This document shows, piece after piece, positions 26,128 to 56,689 of a DNA stretch of 64,000 bases. How positions within the stretch are numbered: position 1 is the stretch's first letter; every line of letters begins with the position of its first letter. The notes beneath the pieces were generated by a model. It made no database searches. It was not told where the DNA came from and saw nothing but the letters and a program-made list of their open reading frames with translations. The DNA lies in the NCBI GenBank assembly GCA_030584085.1, contig CP129490.1, forward strand, positions 1,335,511-1,399,510, given 5' to 3'. The DNA is from Melioribacteraceae bacterium (GTDB lineage Bacteria > Bacteroidota > Ignavibacteria > Ignavibacteriales > Melioribacteraceae). A program made the translations under genes and the position numbers.

Positions 26128-28104
26128 ATGAAAACTAAAGCACTTCTTATACTTTGTTTATTAATTGTTGAAATCTCCGCCGGTGGTTTTCTCAAAGTTG
26201 ACGGACAAAAGATTGTAAACGATGAAGGTGAAGTATATCTAAAAGGAATTGGTTTGGGCGGTTGGATGTTGATGGAAGGATATATGTTCAAAACATCAGC
26301 ATTTGCGAATGCCGAACATCAGATTAAAGCCAAAATTGTTGATGTGGTTGGTGATCAAAAAGCTGAAGAATTTTTCGATTATTTACATCAGAATTTTGTA
26401 ACCGAAGCGGATATTGATAGAATTGCCGAATGGGGATTTAATTCAATTCGTTTACCCATGCATTACAATAAACTTACACCTGAAGATCAACCGGGAGTCT
26501 ATCTTGAAAAAGGATTTCAATACATCGATAATTTACTTGATTGGTGTGAAAAGAATGAACTCTACTTGATATTAGATCTTCATGCCGCACCCGGTGGACA
26601 AAGTGACGAACCAATTAGTGATTATGATCCAACTAAACCATCGTTATGGGAGAGTGAAGAAAACAAGCAAAGAACCGTTGACCTTTGGAGGGTTATTGCC
26701 GAACGTTATGCAAATGAAGAATGGATCGGTGGATATGACTTAATAAATGAAACAAAGTGGGATCTCGGGAACAATAATGCACCGCTTCGAGAACTGATGA
26801 TTAGAATTACCGATGCTATTCGAGAAGTTGATACTAATCATATTGTCTATATCGAGGGCAATTGGTTTGCAACTAATTTTACGGGATTAGCTCCTGCATG
26901 GGATGAAAACTTAGTGTGGAGTTTTCATAAATATTGGAATGAAAACACGCAATCAGCTATTAATAGTTACCTGACTCTAAGATCGCAGACAAATAAACCA
27001 CTTTGGCTTGGTGAAACCGGGGAGAACTCAAATGTATGGTTTACGGATTGTGTTAAGCTGATGAAACAAAATAATATTGGCTGGGCATGGTGGCCTCTCA
27101 AAAAAATTGATGCAATTGCCGGTCCGCTTTCAGCCGAGATTGTTGCGGGGTATCAGCAGTTATTAAATTATTGGCAAGGCAGCGGAAGTAAACCAAATCC
27201 AACAGATGCATATAATTCGCTCATCGCGCAACTTGATAAACTCAAATTAGAAAATTGTGTTTATCGTCCGGATGTAATTAATGCATTGATCGAACTTCCG
27301 GAAAATGAAATTGCAAAACCTTTTAAGGAACATTCTATCCCGGGGAAAATCTTTTTCACTGAATATGATATGGGACCATTAAGTGTCGCATATTTTGATA
27401 AAGATTATCATAATATTGGGACTGAAGAGCAGTCAACTTATAATTCAGGTTATCAATTTAGAAATGACGGTGTTGATATAGAAAAATGTACGGATGCGGT
27501 TACAAATGGTTACAATGTTGGTTGGATTGATTCAGGCGAATATCTAACCTTTACAGTAAATGTGAGTAATTCCGGGGCATATAAACTTAGTTTGAGAATT
27601 TCTGCAAATAACACTGGCGGGAAAATTCTTTTTTACCTAAATGATAACGCAATGACCTCGATGATTGACGTACCGAGTACAGGCGGCTGGCAAAACTGGA
27701 ATACTCTGAATTATGGTAATGTTGAGTTACCACAAGGCGTCCATAAGATCACAGTCAGATTTTATTTCGGCGGATTTAATGTAAACTTTTTTGAATTGGA
27801 GCAAGTAAGCTCAACCGGCGATGATGAAGAAAAACTTCTTAATTTTAATTTAGAACAAAATTATCCAAATCCATTTAACGGTGGTACCACAATTAAATAT
27901 TCACTTCCATCAGCAACTGATGTTGAATTGAATGTTTATGATTCTACCGGACAACATGTAAAAACATTAGTTCATCAATATTCTGTTGCTGGGGATTATG
28001 AAATAAATTGGGAACACAATTCTTTATCGAGCGGAATATATTTTTATACTTTAAATACATCTGCCGGTTATAATGAAACTCGCAAAGCGGTTTATCTAAA
28101 GTAG
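26128..28104 (+). CDS. Secreted GH5 beta-glucanase with CBM6-like module and T9SS sorting domain
   Basis: 658 residues with a signal peptide (ALLILCLLIVEISAGG). The GH5 barrel runs about 20-350: LKGIGLGGWMLMEGY, FNSIRLPMHYN, LDLHAAPGGQ, acid/base Glu208 in DLINETKWD, nucleophile Glu296 in LWLGETGENS. A CBM6-like beta-sandwich follows (about 390-570, DAVTNGYNVGWIDSGEYLTF and GGWQNWNTLNYG). The C-terminal 75 residues are a T9SS sorting domain (LEQNYPNPFNGGTTIKYSLP). The GH5 subfamily is not certain; exo- or endo-beta-1,3/1,4-glucanase are both possible. It is the first gene of a unit with the SGNH protein, behind operator copy 2. Confidence 0.92.
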   Translation: MKTKALLILCLLIVEISAGGFLKVDGQKIVNDEGEVYLKGIGLGGWMLMEGYMFKTSAFANAEHQIKAKIVDVVGDQKAEEFFDYLHQNFVTEADIDRIAEWGFNSIRLPMHYNKLTPEDQPGVYLEKGFQYIDNLLDWCEKNELYLILDLHAAPGGQSDEPISDYDPTKPSLWESEENKQRTVDLWRVIAERYANEEWIGGYDLINETKWDLGNNNAPLRELMIRITDAIREVDTNHIVYIEGNWFATNFTGLAPAWDENLVWSFHKYWNENTQSAINSYLTLRSQTNKPLWLGETGENSNVWFTDCVKLMKQNNIGWAWWPLKKIDAIAGPLSAEIVAGYQQLLNYWQGSGSKPNPTDAYNSLIAQLDKLKLENCVYRPDVINALIELPENEIAKPFKEHSIPGKIFFTEYDMGPLSVAYFDKDYHNIGTEEQSTYNSGYQFRNDGVDIEKCTDAVTNGYNVGWIDSGEYLTFTVNVSNSGAYKLSLRISANNTGGKILFYLNDNAMTSMIDVPSTGGWQNWNTLNYGNVELPQGVHKITVRFYFGGFNVNFFELEQVSSTGDDEEKLLNFNLEQNYPNPFNGGTTIKYSLPSATDVELNVYDSTGQHVKTLVHQYSVAGDYEINWEHNSLSSGIYFYTLNTSAGYNETRKAVYLK

Positions 28105-31750: not shown

Positions 31751-34303
31751 ATGAAGCGATTCTTACTTATTTGCCTTATTCTTTTTACTGGGGCAATCTT
31801 TGCACAAGAGGAGATCATCAATGATTTTGATGAAGCTCCTGATTCAAATTATTGGGCATTCTATCAAAACGATAATGCCGATTCAAACGTCAGCTACATG
31901 AATTTTGAATTCGTGAACGATAATGTTCATGATGGTGCGGCTGCAATGCAAGTAACATACAGTGCTCACAATGCCGAAACCTGGGGCGGTTTCGTGAAAC
32001 TTGAACACTGGTATTATGCTGACTCAAACGGTACATATGACTGGTCAGCGTATGATACTCTATCAATATGGTATAATAACACTATACCGGCTTCTGAGTC
32101 AGGTAGAGTCCATTTTAGACTAAATCTTCACGATGTCAGCGATGCAACTACCGGTAACAAAACCTATGATGTAGGTGATGTAGAATACTGGTATTCGTTC
32201 AATTTCATCTTGGATGATGCACCGGGCTGGCACGAATTAAAATTCGTACTTGCAGGTGTTCAAGATACAGATCAATCCGGTGACGACAAATTTCACTTGA
32301 CCGGCTGGTCTGGTATTGCAGGTAACGCTACATTAGATTTAGATAAAATAAAAGGCTTCTCTTTTGAAATCTCTATTAATGGTTCCGGCGACGGTGATGC
32401 TGTAAACGGACAGATCGTTTTCGATAAGATGACATTAAAGAGCCCTTCTGCAAATCCATTAGTTTTATTCAACGGCGCAGCAGTTCCTGGAGGTGTTACT
32501 TTAGGAACAGGTGGTTGGAGTGATCACGGAGTAGAAGTTACTAGCGAAGAAGCTTATACCCCCGGTACTAAATCAATCAAATGGACGCTTGGAAGTGATT
32601 GGTCAGTTTGGGATGGCGTAAACTGGACTTTAAGTAAAATTAAAAACTTAGCTTTTAGATGGGGTGTCGATTCTCTGAAATTTAAAATTAAAACTGATGC
32701 CGGTATTGGTCCTCTTAAACTTGTTATTCTTGATGACGATACAGACGGTGACGGTCCGGATTTAATGTTTGAAGCTGGATATATGATCGAAGAATCAATG
32801 CTTAATTATGATGGCACTTGGAAGGTAGTATCAATTCCTCTTAGAGATTTCAGCAGATTTGACGGTGGCTGGAATGGAAGCGGAACAACTCCTGGTGAAA
32901 TGGATTCTTCAAGAGTTAAGCAAGTTAAATTATTAATGGCTAGTGCAGCTGGCGCAGGGTACACTGTTTATCTTGATGATGTTTGGACAGGTGATCCAGA
33001 ATTTGACGTAATTGCTCCTGATGCTCCAGGTCTTGTTAACGTTGCTGCCGGTGATTATGTTAACTTAATTACATGGACAGATGTTCCCGGTGAATCAAAT
33101 GAATCTTACAATATCTTTTATAGTTTTAATCCAATCACAGATTTAACAAAGCTTGATGTAGAAGTTGTTGCTATTGGAGTTGGAGAAAATGAACAATTAG
33201 CTACTCACGTGTTGAGAGCTCCACTTACAGATCAAGATGTAACATTTTATTATGCCGTTACTTGTGTAGATGCTTCAGGAAATGAAAGCGTAATTGCAGC
33301 ATCCGATCCTGCTACTCTAACCAATACAGCAAAAGGTGTTGCAGTAATTAATAATGGTGCCCCGGCTAATTTTGTAGCTGACGGTAATCTTGGTGAGTGG
33401 GCTAATATCATGCCTTTCAGAATGTTCCCATCGGATGGAAGTGGTACAGTTGTAACAAATCAAGTGATTGACGGCGATGAAGATCTTTCAGTTAATGCTT
33501 ATTTAGCTGCAGACGCTGAATACCTTTATTTTGCATTCGATATTACCGACGATGTAAACTCTATTGATACAACAATTGCAACTTATTTGACTGATGGTGC
33601 AGATCTATTTATCGGTTTATACAATTGGCATGGACTTTCACACGTTGCCCATCAACGCGGTATTGAGCCTGATTATCAATTCAGATTTGTATCAAATGCT
33701 ATCATAGCAGCTAACATTGGCGATGCTGTGATTAAACGTCCCGGTGAAGACTATGTATTTATGGAAAGATTCCCATCAGGTTACTTTATTGAAGGTAGAA
33801 TGTCATTTGAAGAAATTAGTCAACTAGCTAACCCGGATGATATTTTATACACTCCTGATTTAGGTCATAGAATTAAAATTGACTATTCGTTAAATGATGC
33901 CGATGCAACCGGCCAACGAGAAGGTATCATGACATTATCTCCAAACAATGAAGATCAATCTTGGAATAATGTTAGCCGTTGGACTTATACTTGGATTGGT
34001 AATTCAATGATTTCCGATGTTGAAGATGATGAACTAGCTTTATCATTTGAATTATCTCAAAATTATCCAAACCCATTTAACCCAACAACTACAATTAACT
34101 ATACTGTTCCTACTAATGAATTAGTTACATTGAAAGTGTTCAACATATTGGGTCAAGAAGTAAAAACATTAGTAAACAAAGTACAAAATGCAGGTCATCA
34201 CACAGTATCATTTGATGCTAGCACATTAGCAAGTGGTGTATATATTTACAGATTATCATCCGGTAATTTTGTAAATACTAAAAAGATGATGTTAATTAAA
34301 TAA
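31751..34303 (+). CDS. Multi-module secreted glycan-binding protein with T9SS sorting domain
   Basis: 850 residues with a signal peptide (FLLICLILFTGAIFAQ). No catalytic domain was recognised. Residues 20-230 and 235-425 look like two CBM11/galactose-binding-like beta-sandwiches. About 430-530 is fibronectin-III-like. About 540-740 resembles CBM9/DOMON-type modules (VADGNLGEWANIMPF, YLYFAFDITDDVNS, DGADLFIGLYN). The C-terminus is a T9SS sorting domain (LSQNYPNPFNPTTTINYTVP). It is probably displayed on the cell surface to hold beta-glucan. GGGAGG gives a strong ribosome-binding site, and it forms part of a palindrome AGGAATTCCT ending 1 bp before the ATG. A strong terminator follows. Confidence 0.83.
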   Translation: MKRFLLICLILFTGAIFAQEEIINDFDEAPDSNYWAFYQNDNADSNVSYMNFEFVNDNVHDGAAAMQVTYSAHNAETWGGFVKLEHWYYADSNGTYDWSAYDTLSIWYNNTIPASESGRVHFRLNLHDVSDATTGNKTYDVGDVEYWYSFNFILDDAPGWHELKFVLAGVQDTDQSGDDKFHLTGWSGIAGNATLDLDKIKGFSFEISINGSGDGDAVNGQIVFDKMTLKSPSANPLVLFNGAAVPGGVTLGTGGWSDHGVEVTSEEAYTPGTKSIKWTLGSDWSVWDGVNWTLSKIKNLAFRWGVDSLKFKIKTDAGIGPLKLVILDDDTDGDGPDLMFEAGYMIEESMLNYDGTWKVVSIPLRDFSRFDGGWNGSGTTPGEMDSSRVKQVKLLMASAAGAGYTVYLDDVWTGDPEFDVIAPDAPGLVNVAAGDYVNLITWTDVPGESNESYNIFYSFNPITDLTKLDVEVVAIGVGENEQLATHVLRAPLTDQDVTFYYAVTCVDASGNESVIAASDPATLTNTAKGVAVINNGAPANFVADGNLGEWANIMPFRMFPSDGSGTVVTNQVIDGDEDLSVNAYLAADAEYLYFAFDITDDVNSIDTTIATYLTDGADLFIGLYNWHGLSHVAHQRGIEPDYQFRFVSNAIIAANIGDAVIKRPGEDYVFMERFPSGYFIEGRMSFEEISQLANPDDILYTPDLGHRIKIDYSLNDADATGQREGIMTLSPNNEDQSWNNVSRWTYTWIGNSMISDVEDDELALSFELSQNYPNPFNPTTTINYTVPTNELVTLKVFNILGQEVKTLVNKVQNAGHHTVSFDASTLASGVYIYRLSSGNFVNTKKMMLIK

Positions 34304-41229: not shown

Positions 41230-43038
41230 ATGATGAAAGAGAAAGAAATCAATTATACAATCTTGGCAATCGTTGTCATTCTATTTAATGTTACTATTCA
41301 TGCAAAACAATACAAAGGTGCCGAACTTAGAACACATGAGACCTTTACTTACGGTAGATTTGAAGTGAGCTATATCCCCGCTAAAAGGGAAGGTGTTGTA
41401 TCTTCGTTTTTTACATATCATGAAATAAGCAATGTAAATAATTGGAATGAGATTGATTTCGAGTTTATCGGGCGATACGAAAATCAAATTCAGTGTAACG
41501 TAATTTCACCCGGTCAAAGAAATCACGAGGCAAGTATTCCGCTTGAATTTAATCCATATGCAGAATTTCATACTTATGCGTTTGAGTGGACACCTGATTA
41601 TATAGCGTGGTTTGTTGACGGAATTGAAATATACAGACAAACAGAAGATCACATAGCACAAATTAATCGCGCTCAAAAAATCATGATGAATATTTGGCCA
41701 CCAAACTATATTGATTGGGTTGGTAAAATTGATTCAAAAAATTTGCCGGCTCGTGCTTATTATGATTGGGTAAGTTATTCTTCCTACACACCTGGTGAAG
41801 GTAGTTCCGGAACTGATAATAATTTCACATTTCAATGGCGTGATGACTTTGATTTTTATGATTCCAGCAGATGGGGAAGAGGAACTCATACTTGGGTTGG
41901 TAACGAATCCGATTTTGTAACTGAAAATGTTCAGTTCGAAAACGGGGTCATGATACTTTGTTTAACCAGAGAAGGTGAGACCGGACTTGTTGATAACCAA
42001 CCACCGGTTGTTATGTGGGCTAAAGAAAATTCTTTTAACCAAGTTATTGTTCAATTTGGTGAAGAGGTTGATAAAAATTCTGCAGAAACTATAACGAATT
42101 ATATTATTCCAGGTGTTACTATAACAGGTGCTGAGTTATCATCCGATAGAACCTTCGTAACATTGAGCACGCAAAATTATAATCCGGATATAACCTACAA
42201 CGTTATCGTTCAAAACATTAAAGATGATAAACCTGAAGCGAATACTCTATCAGCAACGGCAAAGACAATTAAACAATTAGGTACGTTAACATTTCCGGTA
42301 AAAATTAATGTCGGCGGTAATGCTGTAAATGATTTCTTGGCTGATCAAGAATGGACGCCTAGTTTAGACTATGGTTTTATGGATGGTTCACCCACATTGT
42401 ATCCGGGCAACTTGCAAATAGCTGATACTGACATTCCGGAAGTATATCGTTCAGAAAGACATCGACTAGTTACTTACAGAATAGATGCACCAAGAGGTAT
42501 CTATAATATTAAACTCCATTTTGCTGAGAATTATTTTGACGAAAGTTCTAAAAGAGTTTTTGATATAACTATTGAGAATGAAAAAATAGCTGATGATTTA
42601 GATATCTTCTCAATTGCTGGGAAGAACACCGCATATGTAATTGAGCATGAAATATTTATTGATGATGATCGCATTGATATTTACTTCACAAATGAAATCG
42701 ACTATGCTTTGATAAATGCAATTGAGCTTGAACAAATAACCACCGGTATTAGTGACTCGGACGAATTACAGAAGTCGATACGATTGAATCAAAATTATCC
42801 CAACCCATTTAATCCTTCAACAACAATTGAATATCATCTTCCCACGAATGCATTTGTATCATTAAAAATTTATGATATGCTTGGTCGCGAAGTTGATACA
42901 TTAATAAATGAATTTAATGATATGGGTTCTCATAAATTTCAATATAATCCGGAAAATTTAGCAAGTGGAGTTTACCTTTATCGGTTATCCGTTGACGGTG
43001 AAATAACTTCTGTCAAAAAAATGGTATTTCTGAAATAA
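41230..43038 (+). CDS. Circularly permuted GH16 lichenase-type glucanase with Ig-like, malectin and T9SS domains
   Basis: 602 residues with a signal peptide ending near TIHA. The mature protein begins KQYKGAELRTHETFTYGRFE, as in Fibrobacter succinogenes 1,3-1,4-beta-glucanase, a known permuted GH16. The catalytic motif is NEIDFEF with Glu74, Asp76, Glu78. YAFEWTPDYIAWFVDG follows. The strand normally at the GH16 N-terminus (FQWRDDFDFYDSSRWGRGTH to ILCLTREGE) comes after it, at about 195-250. Then an SbsA/Big_5-like Ig domain (about 255-345), a malectin-like domain (about 355-500, VKINVGGNAVNDFLADQEW) and a sorting domain (LNQNYPNPFNPSTTIEYHLP). It probably cleaves mixed-linkage beta-glucan outside the cell. 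It starts 4 bp after the PorV-like gene. Confidence 0.92.
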   Translation: MMKEKEINYTILAIVVILFNVTIHAKQYKGAELRTHETFTYGRFEVSYIPAKREGVVSSFFTYHEISNVNNWNEIDFEFIGRYENQIQCNVISPGQRNHEASIPLEFNPYAEFHTYAFEWTPDYIAWFVDGIEIYRQTEDHIAQINRAQKIMMNIWPPNYIDWVGKIDSKNLPARAYYDWVSYSSYTPGEGSSGTDNNFTFQWRDDFDFYDSSRWGRGTHTWVGNESDFVTENVQFENGVMILCLTREGETGLVDNQPPVVMWAKENSFNQVIVQFGEEVDKNSAETITNYIIPGVTITGAELSSDRTFVTLSTQNYNPDITYNVIVQNIKDDKPEANTLSATAKTIKQLGTLTFPVKINVGGNAVNDFLADQEWTPSLDYGFMDGSPTLYPGNLQIADTDIPEVYRSERHRLVTYRIDAPRGIYNIKLHFAENYFDESSKRVFDITIENEKIADDLDIFSIAGKNTAYVIEHEIFIDDDRIDIYFTNEIDYALINAIELEQITTGISDSDELQKSIRLNQNYPNPFNPSTTIEYHLPTNAFVSLKIYDMLGREVDTLINEFNDMGSHKFQYNPENLASGVYLYRLSVDGEITSVKKMVFLK

Positions 43039-50112: not shown

Positions 50113-52062
50113 ATGAAAAAACTACTGTATCTTCTTGTCATTATAATTTTACAGCAATCATTTTTATCTCAAATAACTCCATTCAACAAAGGGGTTAATC
50201 TTACCGGGTGGTTTCAAGTTAATAGTCCGACCGAAATTCATTTCACAAAATATACAAAACAAGATTTCGAGAATATTAAAAGTCTCGGTGCGGATGTAAT
50301 AAGATTGCCGATTAATTTACACAGCATGACACTCGGTTCACCAAATTATGAACTAGATCCGTTATTCCTGAAATTTCTTGATCAAGCAATCGATTGGGCG
50401 GAAGAATTAGAATTACATCTAATTTTAGATAATCACACATTCGATCCCGCAACTTCAACCGACCCCAACATTGGTGATATCTTAATCCCGGTCTGGCAGA
50501 ACATGGCTGAGCACTTTAAGAATAGGTCTAATTTAATTTATTATGAAATACTTAATGAACCGCACGGAATAGCTGATAATACTTGGAATACAATTCAACA
50601 ATCTGTAATAACCGCAATAAGAGAAATTGATTCTGTTCATACAATAATTGTTGGTCCGGCTGGATGGAACAGTTATAACAATCTCAAATACATGCCTGTT
50701 TACGAAGACGATAATTTAATTTATACATTTCATTTTTACGATCCGTTTTTATTTACGCATCAAGGTGCAAGTTGGACCGATCCTTCATTAGTTTCATTAA
50801 GCGGAATGCCGTTCCCTTACAATGCTGCAAATATGCCTCAACTTCCTAATGACTTGGTTGGTACTTGGGTTGAAGGTGCATTCAATAACTATAATAACGA
50901 TGGTACGATTGGCAAAGTTAGGGAGATGTTGGATATTGCGATTGATTTCAAGACTGAAAGAAATGTCCCGATCTTCTGCGGTGAGTTTGGTGTTTACATC
51001 CCGAACTCAAATAATACCGATCGAGTACTTTGGTATAATGTTGTAAGAAATTACCTGGAGTTAAACGGTATTGCGTGGACAACTTGGGATTATCATGGTG
51101 GATTCGGGTTGTTCAAACAAAATGGTTACGGTCTTTTTGAACATGATTTGAATACAAATTTATTAGCTGCATTGGGATTTAATGTCCCTCCTCAATCCGA
51201 ATTTGAATTAAAACCCGATTCAGCAGGCTTCGGAATTTATACCGATTACATCGAATCGAAAATTGTTTCATCGGGTTATACAAGTGGAGTATTAAATTTT
51301 TATAATGTTGATTCGTACACAGGAGATTATTGTATATCATGGTCAAATCCCTCACAATATAATTCAATCGGTTTTAAGTTTATGCCGATTAAGGATTTTA
51401 GTTACTTAAGTCATAATAACTACTTCATTAGCTTTTGGATCAAGGGCAGCAACCCACTTTCAAAATTTGAAATTAGATTCCTTGATACAAAAGAAAACGA
51501 GGAAGACCATCCATGGCGAATGAGTTATACAGTTGATCACAGTGTTGTCGATTTTGATAATCAATGGCAGTATGTGGAAATTCCATTATCATCTTTTAAT
51601 GAGACTGGTTCTTGGGATGATGCCTGGTATAATCCTCAAGGACTTTTTAATTGGAGTGCAGTTGAAATTTTTGAAATCGTGGACGAATTTGGAATGCTAT
51701 CAAACTCACAATTATGGTTTGATGAAATAAAAATTTACGATCCCAATTCAACAAATGTTGAAGAAGAAAATTTAGCTTCGGAATTTCATTTGTATCAGAA
51801 TTATCCCAATCCGTTTAATCCAACAACTGCAATTAAGTTTACAATTCCAAACGTAGGGACAAGTCGCGACTTGTCCCTACAGACAAAATTAATTGTATAT
51901 GATATACTCGGTAGAGAAGTCGCAACTCTTGTAAATAAAGAACTTCATCCGGGTAATCATGAAGTTAAGTTTAATGCAAGTAATCTTTCAAGTGGTGTTT
52001 ATTTCTATAAACTGCAAGCAGCTGATCTTATAAAGACACGAAAATTACTTTTGATGAAATAA
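50113..52062 (+). CDS. Secreted GH5 glucanase with CBM11-like module and T9SS sorting domain
   Basis: 649 residues with a signal peptide (LLVIIILQQSFLSQ). GH5 barrel to about 350: KGVNLTGWFQV, IRLPINLHS, LHLILDNHTFDP, acid/base Glu149 in EILNEPHG, HFYDPFLFTHQGASW, nucleophile Glu291 in IFCGEFGVY, and WTTWDYHGGFGLF. A CBM11-like sandwich covers about 390-550. The sorting domain begins LYQNYPNPFNPTTAIKFTIP. Within this domain about nine residues (VGTSRDLSL) are encoded by a 28-bp perfect palindrome that related domains lack. The gene ends just before a hairpin terminator. Confidence 0.93.
   Translation: MKKLLYLLVIIILQQSFLSQITPFNKGVNLTGWFQVNSPTEIHFTKYTKQDFENIKSLGADVIRLPINLHSMTLGSPNYELDPLFLKFLDQAIDWAEELELHLILDNHTFDPATSTDPNIGDILIPVWQNMAEHFKNRSNLIYYEILNEPHGIADNTWNTIQQSVITAIREIDSVHTIIVGPAGWNSYNNLKYMPVYEDDNLIYTFHFYDPFLFTHQGASWTDPSLVSLSGMPFPYNAANMPQLPNDLVGTWVEGAFNNYNNDGTIGKVREMLDIAIDFKTERNVPIFCGEFGVYIPNSNNTDRVLWYNVVRNYLELNGIAWTTWDYHGGFGLFKQNGYGLFEHDLNTNLLAALGFNVPPQSEFELKPDSAGFGIYTDYIESKIVSSGYTSGVLNFYNVDSYTGDYCISWSNPSQYNSIGFKFMPIKDFSYLSHNNYFISFWIKGSNPLSKFEIRFLDTKENEEDHPWRMSYTVDHSVVDFDNQWQYVEIPLSSFNETGSWDDAWYNPQGLFNWSAVEIFEIVDEFGMLSNSQLWFDEIKIYDPNSTNVEEENLASEFHLYQNYPNPFNPTTAIKFTIPNVGTSRDLSLQTKLIVYDILGREVATLVNKELHPGNHEVKFNASNLSSGVYFYKLQAADLIKTRKLLLMK
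51853..51880 (+). repeat. 28-bp perfect palindrome inside a T9SS sorting domain, copy A
   Basis: Left arm GTAGGGACAAGTCG, right arm its exact reverse complement, no loop. It is inserted in frame within the sorting-domain coding region. Copy B at 56477 lies at the equivalent place in another gene. The ends GTAGGG/CCCTAC are shared; the cores differ. Confidence 0.9.
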
Positions 52063-52076
52063 GTCCATATGCAATC

Positions 52077-52190
52077 AATAAACCAAGTTTCTTAAAGAAA
52101 CTTGGTTTATTAAATTTAAGATTTGTTGACATAGCTCACCTAGTAATCTCTATAAAAAACTTTCCTATCGCATAAAAATGCTATTGAAAA
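52077..52190 (+). repeat. Intergenic block with perfect hairpin, copy 1
   Basis: It starts with AATAAACCAAGTTTCTT, one A, and the exact reverse complement (52077-52111), a 17-bp stem that probably ends the GH5 transcript. About 75 further bases (AAATTTAAGATTTGT, CTCTATAA, ATAAAAAT) resemble the block at 55280. The whole 306-bp gap 52063-52368 otherwise holds only the leader of the next gene. Confidence 0.75.
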
Positions 52191-52260
52191 AAAAGACGAA
52201 TTCTCTTATTATTAATTATTCTTGATTTAATTTCGAAAGGAGTAAATTAAAAAGTGATGC

Positions 52261-52334
52261 TTCTCGAGTATCTTTAATTTATAATAAATTAATTTTTATT
52301 CGAGAATGATAGAGTTTCAATGATTGGAAACTCT
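52261..52334 (+). promoter_or_regulatory. Structured 5' leader of the GLUG-repeat gene
   Basis: Nested and successive inverted repeats: TTCTCGA (52261) with TCGAGAA (52300), inner AATTTAT/ATAAATT (52276-52290), then AGAGTTTC (52311) with GAAACTCT (52327). They end 34 bases before the ATG. They could be a leader-RNA fold or protein-binding sites; no known riboswitch was recognised. Confidence 0.4.
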
Positions 52335-52368
52335 CCAAATATTTATAATTTCTTAAAAAGGATAAGTC

Positions 52369-55218
52369 ATGATAAAAGTTTCAAGCATATACTCAGTAGT
52401 ATTTTGTTTTCTTTTTGCCGGTACAACTTTACTTGCTCAAGGTATTGCACCGGTTGATACAGACAGCGACGGCAGACTTGAAATTGCAACAAAAGATAAT
52501 CTGCTTTACCTCTCTCAAAATCCTTCCGCGGATTGGAGTGCAGATTATGAACAAACTGCGGATATAATTTTTAATGACACAGATTTCCAATCCGGTGGTG
52601 ATTTTTACAATGGCGGTGCTGGATTCTCACCAATAGGTAATTCTTCTACCGGTTTTACAGGTACATACGATGGAAATGGATACAAGATAAGTAATCTATA
52701 TACCAATAGAGGAGCGACTGATTTTATTGGATTTTTCGGTCAAGCTGGTAATAATGCTGAGATAAATAACCTTGGCATTGTGGATGCGGAAATAAATGGT
52801 AGAAACTTTGTAGGTGGATTAGTTGGTTCGATTTCTAATTCAAATATTTCTTTAGCAAACTCCTACTTCTCCGGTTCCATAAATGCAACCGGCAGTGATG
52901 TTGGCGGTTTGATCGGATCATTAAGTAATGGATCATCGATCATTGAAAGATGTTTTTCAACAGGTTCGGTTGTAAGCACAGGTGTTAATGTGGGCGGGCT
53001 TATTGGTACTGTATCGGGAAGCAATATAGAAATAAAGAACAGTTATTCAACAGGTGTCGTTAGTGGTTCTGAGTATTGTGGCGGCATTGCAGGAGCACTG
53101 ATAGCATCCACAATTCAGAACTGTTTTTCCATAAGTCCTGTAAGCGGCAGTAGCAATATAGGCGGGTTTGTTGGATATAGATATTCAGCGAATCCAGGTA
53201 CAATTTCAAATTCGTTCTTTAATACAGATTCGACCGTATCCGGCGTCGGTAGCGGTCCATCAACCGGTGTTGAGGGAAGATCAACTGCCGAAATGACCGA
53301 TCCGTTAATTTATTTTTTTGGCGACTGGGATAATACTGTGTGGTATTGGGATAGTGATTTTAATAATGCTTATCCGGCTTTAGCTTGGCAAAATCCGTCC
53401 GGGACTCCTTTACAAGCAGATGTATTTTCAGGTGGTTCAGGTACATCTGAGGATCCATATCAAATTGCTTCAGCCGAGAACTTAAATATGGTTCGTTATG
53501 CATTAACTAAATATTATATACAAACAACTGATATTGATTTGAATGTCTCCCCATTTAATAGTGGAGCGGGATGGGAGCCAATAGGTGCAGATGCAAGTAG
53601 ATTTGCGGGGCAATATGATGGAAATGGTTACAAAATTTCTAATCTATTTATAGACCGTTCCGGCAGTGATAATGTGGGTTTATTCGGACTACTTGATGGA
53701 GCAACCGTAAAGAATGTAAATCTTGTGGATGTCAATATAACCGGCAAAGACTTTGTTGGAGCAATTGCAGGTCGAAATTTTGCGGTTATTCAACAATGTA
53801 ATTCAACCGGAAGTGTAAATGGAGCAAATTATGTAGGCGGTATTACGGGTCATAGTATGAATGGTTCAATTACCGGCTCAATCACAAGGTGCTATTCTCT
53901 CGCTAGTGTATCGGGAACAGCTCATGTTGGTGGTCTTATCGGACGATTATTTGAAGGTTCTATAGATCGATGTTATTCGGCAGGGGCTGTTGCGGGTTCA
54001 AGTAGTACAGGCGGACTAGTAGGTTCGCGCGGAGGTGGAACCACTTCATCGAATTATTGGAATACTGAAACAAGCGGACAAAACGCTTCGGCTTCTGGAA
54101 CAGAAAAAACTACTGATGATATGAGAGGCATAACCGCTTCAAACAGCATAACAGATTGGGGTTGGGATGCTTCAATTTGGGAAAGGATAGGGCATAATTA
54201 TCCGACTCTTAAAGTTATGCGTGAAGTTAATTTGGATAATATCGGCAACTCGGATTTTTCAACTTCAGATTTCAGAGATATTGGTTTTAAATCCGAGACC
54301 GGAACAATAACAGTTGATTTTGAATTCTACGCTTCAACAACGCCGCCGGACGCGCCGGATGGAAGCATATCAGTCGGTAAATATTGGGATGTAATGAGCT
54401 TAAGCGGCAACACTAAAATAAGACTCTATTATACTGCCGATGAAAAATCACAGTTTACCGGTACGCCAAAAATCTTTCATTACACCGGGGGACAGTGGGT
54501 AGAACTGCCTACCGAACCGGAAGTTGATATCGATGATCTAGGCACAGATTTTTATGTAGAAACAACAAATTACTATTCATCATTTTCACCGGTGACTGTT
54601 GGAGACGGCAATGCCCCTCTTCCTGTAGAGCTAACTTACTTTGAAGGGTACAATACTGAAGATGGAGTTGTGCTGAAATGGGAAACGGCGACGGAGGTAA
54701 ACAATTATGGGTTTCAAGTTCAAAGGATAAAGGATAAAGGACAAAGTGAGTGGGAAGATGTAGGTTTTGTGCAAGGTTACGGGACAACTAACTCACCAAA
54801 GCATTACGAATTTACGGATTCCGAATTACCGAATGCTGAATCTGTTGACTACAGACTTAAACAAATAGACAATGACGGCACGTTTGCTTATTCAAAAACA
54901 ATTACCGTAGATATCACAACAATTACAACTGTTGAAAATGAAGAAATTCCAAATGTTTATTCACTTGAGCAAAATTATCCTAATCCGTTTAATCCAACAA
55001 CAACCATTAAGTTTGGTTTACCGGAAAACGGTTTAGTTGATCTTCGTGTTTACAACATCTTGGGAGAAGAAATAGCAAGATTAATAAACAAAGAATTGCG
55101 AGCTGGATACCACGAAGTAAGTTTTGGCAGCAATAATCTCTCAAGCGGAATGTATATTTATAGAATATCTGTTGGTGATAAATTTAATTCTGTTAAGAAG
55201 ATGTTGATTATAAAGTGA
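52369..55218 (+). CDS. GLUG-repeat secreted protein with T9SS sorting domain
   Basis: 949 residues with a signal peptide (VVFCFLFAGTTLLAQ). Two arrays of GLUG-type repeats (about 95-320 and 420-590): recurring units such as YDGNGYKISNL, FVGGLVGSISNS, DVGGLIGSL and CFSTGSV. These form beta-solenoid-like, adhesin-type structures. About 745-850 is a Fn3-like pre-sorting module (PVELTYFEGYNTEDGVVLKW, NNYGFQVQRI) shared with the next gene. The sorting domain is LEQNYPNPFNPTTTIKFGLP. It is probably a surface adhesin or binding protein, with no enzyme motif seen. AAGGAT ribosome-binding site. Confidence 0.87.
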   Translation: MIKVSSIYSVVFCFLFAGTTLLAQGIAPVDTDSDGRLEIATKDNLLYLSQNPSADWSADYEQTADIIFNDTDFQSGGDFYNGGAGFSPIGNSSTGFTGTYDGNGYKISNLYTNRGATDFIGFFGQAGNNAEINNLGIVDAEINGRNFVGGLVGSISNSNISLANSYFSGSINATGSDVGGLIGSLSNGSSIIERCFSTGSVVSTGVNVGGLIGTVSGSNIEIKNSYSTGVVSGSEYCGGIAGALIASTIQNCFSISPVSGSSNIGGFVGYRYSANPGTISNSFFNTDSTVSGVGSGPSTGVEGRSTAEMTDPLIYFFGDWDNTVWYWDSDFNNAYPALAWQNPSGTPLQADVFSGGSGTSEDPYQIASAENLNMVRYALTKYYIQTTDIDLNVSPFNSGAGWEPIGADASRFAGQYDGNGYKISNLFIDRSGSDNVGLFGLLDGATVKNVNLVDVNITGKDFVGAIAGRNFAVIQQCNSTGSVNGANYVGGITGHSMNGSITGSITRCYSLASVSGTAHVGGLIGRLFEGSIDRCYSAGAVAGSSSTGGLVGSRGGGTTSSNYWNTETSGQNASASGTEKTTDDMRGITASNSITDWGWDASIWERIGHNYPTLKVMREVNLDNIGNSDFSTSDFRDIGFKSETGTITVDFEFYASTTPPDAPDGSISVGKYWDVMSLSGNTKIRLYYTADEKSQFTGTPKIFHYTGGQWVELPTEPEVDIDDLGTDFYVETTNYYSSFSPVTVGDGNAPLPVELTYFEGYNTEDGVVLKWETATEVNNYGFQVQRIKDKGQSEWEDVGFVQGYGTTNSPKHYEFTDSELPNAESVDYRLKQIDNDGTFAYSKTITVDITTITTVENEEIPNVYSLEQNYPNPFNPTTTIKFGLPENGLVDLRVYNILGEEIARLINKELRAGYHEVSFGSNNLSSGMYIYRISVGDKFNSVKKMLIIK
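54721..54745 (+). repeat. Short AAAGGATAAAGG-type tandem inside coding sequence
   Basis: AAAGGAT occurs twice, followed by AAAGGACAAAG. It encodes the loop RIKDKGQS between QV and EWE, where the paralogous module at 56170 has an unrelated sequence. It looks like a small repeat accepted in a surface loop. Confidence 0.5.
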
Positions 55219-55279
55219 TATTCATTTTATGTAAATTCTCAATTTGTCGTAATTGATGATCAAATGGCGTAAAAATGAC

Positions 55280-55395
55280 TAAACCAAGTTTCTTAAAGAA
55301 ACTTGGTTTATGAAATTTAAGATTTGTGACCACACCTCTCGGGGTACTCTCTATAATAAACATCAGCATCGAATAAAAATCTTATCACGAAGCGA
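55280..55395 (+). repeat. Intergenic block with perfect hairpin, copy 2
   Basis: TAAACCAAGTTTCTT, one A, and its exact reverse complement (55280-55310), then sequence similar to the 52077 block (AAATTTAAGATTTGT, CTCTATAA, AATAAAAAT). The stem can end the GLUG-gene transcript. The remaining part of the 340-bp gap (55219-55558) has no recognised gene; a half site TTATCAAAT near 55407 is probably chance. Confidence 0.72.
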
Positions 55396-55558
55396 TGACT
55401 TTGACTTATCAAATTAGTGTCTGTTCAATTTTTCGGAATAAGGGCAATAGACATCCATATCAAATTTTCCTTTAAGTGTTGACCAAAAGCCATAATTATG
55501 CTATTTTTTTAAAAACGATGTCAAGTCTGATTTAATAAGAGATAACTGCGGAGAAGAT

Positions 55559-56689
55559 ATGTACAAGAAACTAACTCCTATTTTAATGTTATTTTTATTA
55601 CTTATTACAAATCAAGCACAAACCACTATTTACTCCACTTTTGGACCGGAGAATTCCTGGGATGTTGACTCTGAAGGAGCAGATGCTTCTGGCTCTGTTC
55701 ACATATCCTACTACTTTTCAGTTGAAGATCCGGGTTATACTAATATTACAATTGAAGCTGCTGTCTATTATTCATTGGACGGAAGTTGTAGCATAGAAGT
55801 ATATAGCGACGATGGATCAAATCGTCCCACTGGATCTCCTTTGGCAAGTGGTACCATGACAGTAACAACATCAGATGAAATTCAATCGACTAATTTTTCT
55901 AGTCTAAATCTAACTCCGGGTACTTATCATATTGTCTTCTCCGATGGAGTTACTATTAGACTCAACGATCAAGGCTATACCGGTGGATCAATCTCAAATG
56001 ATGGGAGTTTTTGGATTAATTCTCCAAGTGCACCACAAGCTGCTTTTCGTATAACGGCTGAATCGGCTTTACCTGTTGAGCTCATCTACTTTGAAGGAAC
56101 AGCAACTGAAGACGGCGTTCTCCTTAAATGGGAAACTGCAACAGAAGTAAACAATTACGGCTTTGATGTAGAGCGCCGATCCTCGTCGCTTACGGAGTGG
56201 GAACAAGTTCGATTCGTACAAGGACACGGCACAACCAATTCTCCAAAACAATATTCATTTACCGATCCTCTTAATCTTGATCTTAATCTTACTCGCCTTG
56301 ATTACCGACTCAAACAAATCGATAATGACGGCACATACGCATATTCAAAAACAATAACTGTTGATTTGACAACTATAACTTCTGTTGAGGATGAAGTGAT
56401 TTATGAATTTGCGTTGGAACAGAATTATCCTAACCCCTTCAACCCAAGTACAACAATAAAATTTACAGTCCCAAATGTAGGGGACGAATATATTCGTCCC
56501 CTACACACAAAGTTAATTGTATACGATATCCTTGGAAGAGAAGTTGGAACTCTTGTTAATCAAAAACTTCAACCCGGTAATCATGAAGTACAATTTGATG
56601 GAAGCAATCTATCAACCGGAATGTATATTTATAGGATTAATATTGATAGAAAGTTTAACTCTGTGAAGAAGATGTTGATGGTTAAGTGA
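55559..56689 (+). CDS. Secreted protein with unknown N-terminal domain, Fn3-like module and T9SS sorting domain
   Basis: 376 residues with a signal peptide (LTPILMLFLLLITNQAQ). About 20-165 is a beta-rich domain I do not recognise (YYSLDGSCSIEVYSDDG, LTPGTYHIVFSDG). About 170-280 is the Fn3-like module PVELIYFEGTATEDGVLLKW, very close to that of the GLUG protein. The sorting domain is LEQNYPNPFNPSTTIKFTVP. It carries a 28-bp palindrome in frame (residues VGDEYIRPL). An imperfect repeat of CTTAATCTTGAT units near 56270 makes the run NLDLNLT. A binding or structural surface role is likely; no catalytic motif was seen. Confidence 0.8.
   Translation: MYKKLTPILMLFLLLITNQAQTTIYSTFGPENSWDVDSEGADASGSVHISYYFSVEDPGYTNITIEAAVYYSLDGSCSIEVYSDDGSNRPTGSPLASGTMTVTTSDEIQSTNFSSLNLTPGTYHIVFSDGVTIRLNDQGYTGGSISNDGSFWINSPSAPQAAFRITAESALPVELIYFEGTATEDGVLLKWETATEVNNYGFDVERRSSSLTEWEQVRFVQGHGTTNSPKQYSFTDPLNLDLNLTRLDYRLKQIDNDGTYAYSKTITVDLTTITSVEDEVIYEFALEQNYPNPFNPSTTIKFTVPNVGDEYIRPLHTKLIVYDILGREVGTLVNQKLQPGNHEVQFDGSNLSTGMYIYRINIDRKFNSVKKMLMVK
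56477..56504 (+). repeat. 28-bp perfect palindrome inside a T9SS sorting domain, copy B
   Basis: Left arm GTAGGGGACGAATA with its exact reverse complement, no loop. It has the same insertion point and reading frame as copy A (51853), flanked by CCAAA(T/C) and (A/C)ACA(A)A then TTAATTGTATA, but the inner bases are different. Confidence 0.9.

Follow-up and report, generated by a model that had tools for sequence, protein, structure and literature searches.

A stretch of 64,000 nucleotides (the window; positions 1335511-1399510 of contig G000:C1, the single 3.74 Mb contig of a Melioribacteraceae genome from the Ignavibacteria) contains two genes for secreted proteins, a GH5 cellulase-like protein (gene 1) and a second protein (gene 2). 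Both end in a type A sorting domain of the type IX secretion system (T9SS) and exceed the curated cut-off for this domain at the C terminus (PF18962, TIGR04183). In each sorting domain, a perfect 28-bp palindrome with the ends GTAGGG and CCCTAC and a core of its own begins directly behind the Asn of an IKFT(I/V)PN motif, in codon phase 0, where chance would give ~ 0.014 perfect 28-bp palindromes in a genome of such size. The original prediction, made from the sequence alone, had described both palindromes with their half-cores, their common codon position, and the lack of the insert in the rest of the window's sorting domains, and our reading of the sequence agrees on all three (four other domains lack it). 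The insert is in frame, as proposed, but it is not a clean 28-bp insertion, as the loop gains seven codons (21 nt) relative to insert-less domains. We consider it likely that these GTAG/CTAC palindromes are non-autonomous mobile elements, similar to repetitive extragenic palindromes (REPs), of the system of the REP-associated tyrosine transposase (RAYT, or TnpA-REP, an HUH single-strand nuclease), with an in-frame loop site at which one core replaces another.

A palindrome family and its site in one protein loop

Strict copies were defined by the pattern GTAGGG-N(4-34)-CCCTAC, so that the GTAG ends are built into the search, and degenerate copies were counted only inside stretches fetched from the genome. 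The proposed family of palindromic elements was borne out by further copies in the genome: 18 strict copies were found genome-wide, against 4 for a reversed control. Twelve of them lie inside sorting domains, every one in reading phase 0, and six elsewhere, including one (L013) in a stretch that resembles a decayed sorting domain. The chance of 12 of 18 copies falling within 127 windows of 60 bp is ~ 1e-28, a value that counts copies rather than events, as duplication spreads copies too. GTAG stands at the stem foot in all strict copies, and also in copies derived from RAYT genes or sorting domains (for example, the GTAGAGAC and GTAGTGGAC types). No target-site duplication was present at 89 of 102 distinct sites, while just 5' of GTAG, T is favoured and G avoided. 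Among 31 distinct 28-mers chosen by their ends alone, the eight core pairs were 86.7% paired, with a covariation score of 0.866 compared to 0.244 when shuffled and at most 0.198 when slid. Because the core arms covary, it is the symmetry of the nucleic acid, rather than a peptide, that is kept. Rfam gave zero matches within the window.

Of 127 PF18962 matches in the genome, 22 (about a sixth) have a GTAG palindrome in the loop, representing five core types: A in 5 domains, B in 9, C in 6, and E (GTAGTGGACGCAAAATTTGCGTCCACTAC) and F (GTAGAGAC...GTCTCTAC) in 1 each. The residue count from NPF to VYDxLG is 19 in 90 domains, 26 in 19, 24 in 6, 22 in 5, and 21 in 2; all nineteen 26-residue domains and three 22-residue domains contain the palindrome, intact or slightly decayed. 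The net loop gain is 21 or 9 nt instead of 28, so the palindrome together with a linker replaced part of the old loop. Junctions are near-uniform among this genome's copies, with TKLIVYD as the common linker, while the peptides encoded by the cores are unrelated (GTSRDLS, GDEYIRP, GTTHELS, VDAKFAS).

We modelled the structure of the sorting domain of gene 1 (mean pLDDT 88.7). The model matched, among Ig-like folds, the solved C-terminal T9SS domains 8glk and 8qb1, and places the palindrome-coded residues 27-35 in the turn between strands 17-24 and 36-42. The loop is thus predicted to be the first beta-hairpin turn of the type A sorting domain, lengthened by the palindrome compared to the standard domain (PF18962, TIGR04183) and apparently tolerant of it, in line with the tolerated loop suggested earlier. 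A second insert type (VKRETSN, with GTGAAAC-like heptamer repeats) was observed in the same loop of the six 24-residue domains, at 246471, 2897339, 3377119, 3570545, 3589452, and 3682003, and also in sorting domains of other genera (L209, L219, L223, L225).

Table 1. Palindromes, host genes, and sorting domains, in window coordinates
Feature	Positions	Strand	Remarks
Palindrome with core A (GTAGGG ACAAGTCG CGACTTGT CCCTAC)	51853..51880	.	Perfect, 28 bp; letters GTAGGGACAAGTCGCGACTTGTCCCTAC; encodes VGTSRDLSL in frame
Palindrome with core B (GTAGGG GACGAATA TATTCGTC CCCTAC)	56477..56504	.	Perfect, 28 bp; letters GTAGGGGACGAATATATTCGTCCCCTAC; encodes VGDEYIRPL in frame
Host gene 1	50113..52062	+	Product secreted, GH5 cellulase-like; carries a T9SS type A sorting domain
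Sorting domain of gene 1	51802..52047	+	T9SS; insert-bearing; 26-residue spacing
Host gene 2	55559..56689	+	Product secreted; carries a T9SS type A sorting domain
Sorting domain of gene 2	56426..56674	+	T9SS; insert-bearing; 26-residue spacing
Sorting domain for comparison	27862..28077	+	No insert; 19-residue spacing
Sorting domain for comparison	34064..34291	+	No insert
Sorting domain for comparison	42796..43026	+	No insert
Sorting domain for comparison	54976..55209	+	No insert; in the gene between the two hosts

Inheritance of the insert and turnover of its core

We built a tree from the sorting-domain flanks with the insert removed; half of its branches are poorly supported, so only a statistical statement is drawn from it. 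On this tree, insert presence required 10 changes compared to 25.5 when shuffled, with 0 of 500 shuffles as low, while core type required 16 changes compared to 16.5, with 47% of shuffles as low. Core type was also unrelated to flank identity once three pairs of tandem duplicates with a shared core were removed (2471223/2472862, 1197092/1198048, and 2895633/2900340), and three domains with a rare palindrome-RVYD junction share 81-88% of their flanks and have cores A, A, and C. Insert presence is therefore inherited and core identity is not.

A conspecific metagenome-assembled genome (MAG), Ignavibacteriales bacterium SURF_28, aligns with this genome over long stretches at ~ 97-98.5% identity. 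It contains ten strict copies, seven of which match this genome, one of the seven with a single-base difference. The sorting domain at 3591440 has core B in SURF_28 and core C here: a 41-nt block stands in place of another 41-nt block, including a few linker bases, between near-identical flanks. Since the linker differs too, conversion from a second sorting domain is a better fit than insertion of a bare palindrome. SURF_28 also has a segment of ~ 530 bp with a RAYT carrying core A; this genome lacks the segment and has in its place 155 bp that include a different inverted repeat. One intergenic core A copy of SURF_28 is matched here by a different hairpin. We read these three differences without a direction of change, and there is a small chance that strain mixture in the MAG contributed to them. 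A comparison of L300:1964-2118 with L298 places this genome's inverted-repeat element (GTCATTTCGAATGA...TTCGGAATGAC) at the site of the core A RAYT of SURF_28, so that different hairpin elements alternate at this one intergenic site.

Fixation of the same palindrome in orthologues, which would have refuted the original prediction, was not seen for gene 1. SURF_28 retains core A, the congener G002 has a B-type core, and the more distant relative G005 has no insert. When this GH5 gene (50113-52062) is compared between congeners (L232), its sorting domain diverges far more than its catalytic domain, which is 85% identical in the G002 orthologue while the whole sorting domain differs; this suggests a sorting-domain swap.

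Many related genera have a GTAG palindrome in the same loop, with cores and junctions of their own (for example, GTAGAGACGGGGCATGCCCCGTCTCTAC, GTAGAGACGGGATATATCCCGTCTCTAC, GTAGGTGATGCAAAATTTGCATCACCTAC, and GTAATGACAGGGAACGCCCTGTCATTAC). In relatives, the raw count of the pattern (151) does not exceed that of the reversed control (230) and by itself proves nothing; there, the case is made by the palindromic cores and where they lie. Genus G012 (L190, L196, L198, L200, L032) has another hot spot in coding DNA: in secreted proteins, the loop that precedes W(E)(K/T)(I/V)GFVEG holds core A or C in four genes. Exact core A was found in 41 stretches across a collection of 84,980 genomes, representing Ignavibacteria, Bacteroidota, Aminicenantes, one Spirochaetia MAG, and one Micrarchaeota MAG. 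Core A was further observed in frame in an apparent isoleucyl-tRNA synthetase gene of a Chitinophaga MAG (L276:5590-5617) and in a Kdo-transferase-like gene of Flavobacterium (L277:1932-1959), both identified by eye from the flanking peptide. In a G025 sorting domain (L203), palindromes are nested, with CCTACCACGGTAGG in frame within core A.

Because insert presence clusters on the flank tree, core type does not, and one core was swapped in place, we read the loop as an inherited landing site at which the palindrome is replaced. Two readings had been proposed for the window's genes, and they fared differently: exchange of cores after insertion agrees with the independence of core type from the flank tree and with the swap between conspecifics, while recent independent mobilisation into each of the two genes is less supported, as in this genome a sorting-domain subfamily passes on the occupied site and it is mainly the core that turns over. 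For this genome, core exchange is the better fit, and the original prediction is supported in that part.

A competing account is that each sorting domain received its palindrome in a new insertion by RAYT at a preferred target, so that similar targets gave similar sites. We hold this to be possible though rather unlikely. Junctions and cores differ in other genera, which indicates several separate insertions into the loop within the order, and the second hot spot in G012 and the base preference before GTAG also agree with it. A separate origin of every insert in this genome is nevertheless disfavoured by the clustering of presence on the flank tree; the near-uniform junctions and common linker also stand against it, and a bare insertion would leave the linker unchanged, whereas the conspecific swap altered it.

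Plain gene duplication, with the palindromes as immobile fossils copied along with the sorting domains, appears improbable. It would account for the shared cores of the tandem duplicates and for the seven of ten copies that are the same in two conspecifics. However, core type is unrelated to flank similarity, identical cores reappear in other genera and phyla, and the in-place swap, the presence and absence of a RAYT, and the copies outside sorting domains exceed what duplication does.

RAYT genes that carry the palindrome

The Y1_Tnp genes that a PF01797 search identified in this genome are IS200-like or unrelated, and no GTAGGG was found within 1.5 kb of them. The first clue to another transposase was a palindrome in frame in a RAYT gene, just 3' of NHIHGIIIIE. 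With this palindrome-bearing RAYT protein as the query, the transposase missed by the PF01797 search was recovered, with matches in 39 of 58 genomes. A REP-type tyrosine transposase, which the original prediction had proposed looking for, is thus present, and is linked to the palindromes by position and sequence.

Among the 36 distinct RAYT genes that we read, 21 have a GTAG palindrome (up to 2 mismatches) in frame, in either open phase, 4-31 residues past the HUH motif, and 11 have palindromes of this kind nearby. In one RAYT, L181 (open frame 1570-2115), core C flanks the gene at 1481-1508 and 2189-2216 and also lies within it at 1864-1891, while the SURF_28 RAYT (L264) has core A inside. 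Cores A and C occur exactly inside RAYTs, and B and E as close variants, a near-B core in RAYTs of two genera and a close core E variant in that of another relative. RAYTs without a palindrome have an empty loop, as a comparison of IIIIDPSKAGDKKIKSLS with IIIIDPTN-VGTSRDLSLQ-SNHKIKSLS demonstrates. The single RAYT of this kind in this genome, at 3.2238 Mb, has an in-frame, degenerate GTAGGGGTCGATCATCATCGACCCC and is closely surrounded by degenerate palindromes of B-like and E-like type. Position and sequence therefore connect the palindrome family with RAYT, both in relatives and in one conspecific.

HxH is invariant among these RAYTs and the Tyr of FYDRIIR nearly so, giving the HUH motif and catalytic Tyr of the class. 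The RAYT model had a pLDDT of 86.0, with 58-66 in the insert loop and about 96 in the core, and its best structural match was 4er8, the E. coli TnpA-REP with a bound REP hairpin; 4er8 was also the sole PDB sequence match at E 0.01. The HUH motif, conserved Tyr, and fold are thus like those of TnpA-REP, while the long variable loop past the HUH motif, which holds the palindrome, and a lower family score are not.

Origin of the palindromes and relation to known systems

By analogy with TnpA-REP, the RAYT may move or nick these palindromes. TnpA-REP recognises single-stranded REP hairpins, needs GTAG, and cleaves at CT (or CA) beside them (PMC8266576). In the present family, either strand of the palindrome has GTAG at its foot, the terminal CCCTAC includes a CT, and the RAYT would probably act on the hairpin formed by each strand with GTAG as a guide; the lack of target duplication fits this enzyme class. 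Genic copies would persist only where they are in frame in a tolerant loop, and, as one of the three phases reads TAG, just two are viable. The main loop of this kind would be the first beta-hairpin turn of T9SS type A sorting domains, and the second would be the loop past the HUH motif of RAYT genes. In this genome, one or a few ancestral insertions would have spread with the sorting-domain subfamily, and the resident palindrome would later have been replaced by versions with other cores, most likely through short-tract conversion from paralogous sorting domains. New cores would arrive with RAYTs and feed the exchange.

Several observations weigh against this explanation. Cleavage and transposition by the RAYT, and the route of core exchange, are inferred. 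The RAYT of this genome holds only degenerate B-like copies, and the core A RAYT is absent from the genome. RAYT scores with NCBIfam NF047646 (REP-associated tyrosine transposase) were 64.4, 49.2, and 69.7 bits, under the curated cut-off of 80, although the loop insert may lower this score. Across 58 genomes, the correlation between RAYT number and copy number is weak (rho 0.28, p 0.03). Support for the flank tree is poor, the comparable sites gave a single case of an in-place core swap, and no exact donor of the swapped cassette turned up in this genome.

A more far-reaching version, which we regard as unlikely and offer as speculation, is that a RAYT system marks the RAYT gene with its own palindrome and maintains, in the sorting-domain loop, a coding reservoir that spans the genome. 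A RAYT nick of the resident hairpin would then start a homing-like, in-place conversion of the cassette, making the loop a docking station for successive REP families.

Template-switch mutation, which would create and repair perfect palindromes in place and require no mobile element, is very improbable as the source of the family. In its favour, some copies are near-perfect, and an intergenic copy without mismatches in SURF_28 has one here. Template switching may help to keep the symmetry; it leaves unexplained the constant GTAG ends and the identical 28-mers at unrelated sites and in other genera. Selection for a functional loop peptide, with an incidental palindrome, would suit a loop that is always in frame in an exported domain but is scarcely credible and was rejected, as the core peptides are unrelated, the arms covary as DNA, and the same palindromes lie in intergenic DNA. 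A miniature inverted-repeat element mobilised by a DDE transposase shares inverted repeats and dispersed copies, and is just as hard to credit: it was rejected on the missing target duplications, the RAYT genes carry the palindrome, and no DDE association was seen, without a systematic search for one.

Compared to known systems, the palindromes most resemble the GTAG-tagged REPs and REPtrons (Di Nocera 2013, PMC3733652; TnpA-REP groups 2 and 3, PMC8266576), which share a 20-40 bp palindrome with GTAG at its foot, many covarying core types, and copies near and beside RAYT genes, some of them intragenic. At 28 bp, dispersed and palindromic, they fit the size range of the GTAG REP superfamily, and like group 3 REPs, which are generally perfect palindromes (PMC8266576), they are perfect. 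GTAG REPs, REPtrons, and intragenic REPs were already known, and REPs are defined by an unpaired GTAG and a mostly extragenic location (PMC3733652). Here, in contrast, GTAG is paired with the terminal CTAC in every perfect copy, placing the tag on both strands, and 12 of the 18 strict copies are coding. Because these two features both differ, we call the family a REP-like variant rather than a REP member. It is further set apart by the in-frame palindrome inside RAYT genes and by one protein loop serving as a shared coding site across the order. Rickettsia palindromic elements and the intragenic REPs of Opitutus terrae (PMC3733652) are also in-frame palindromes in protein genes, a likeness of habit to the 28-bp elements here. 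Their target proteins are diverse, while here one site in a paralogous domain family is repeatedly occupied, with core exchange and a linked RAYT.

Our search of the open literature (closed journals were outside its scope) gave no report of palindromes in T9SS sorting domains, of an order-wide coding site in them, of RAYT genes carrying their palindrome in frame, or of cores turning over at one fixed coding position, and the phrase "within the RAYT gene" appeared in no paper. The spread of REPs is called poorly understood in recent work (PMC8266576). In the present family, one well-defined coding site holds different palindromes throughout a bacterial order, RAYT genes identify their palindrome through the in-frame copy that they carry, and a conspecific pair has an in-place swap and a RAYT present in one and absent in the other. 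Together, these make it directly testable whether RAYTs move REPs and whether REPs replace each other. Residence in an export-tag loop and in the gene of the probable mover enzyme is an unusual mode for mobile DNA in genes, and a short mobile palindrome can evidently persist stably in the export tag of many secreted proteins. Separately, the same terminator-like hairpin (AAACCAAGTTTCTT / AAGAAACTTGGTTT) was observed 3' of two neighbouring genes of the window, at 52077-52111 and 55280-55310.

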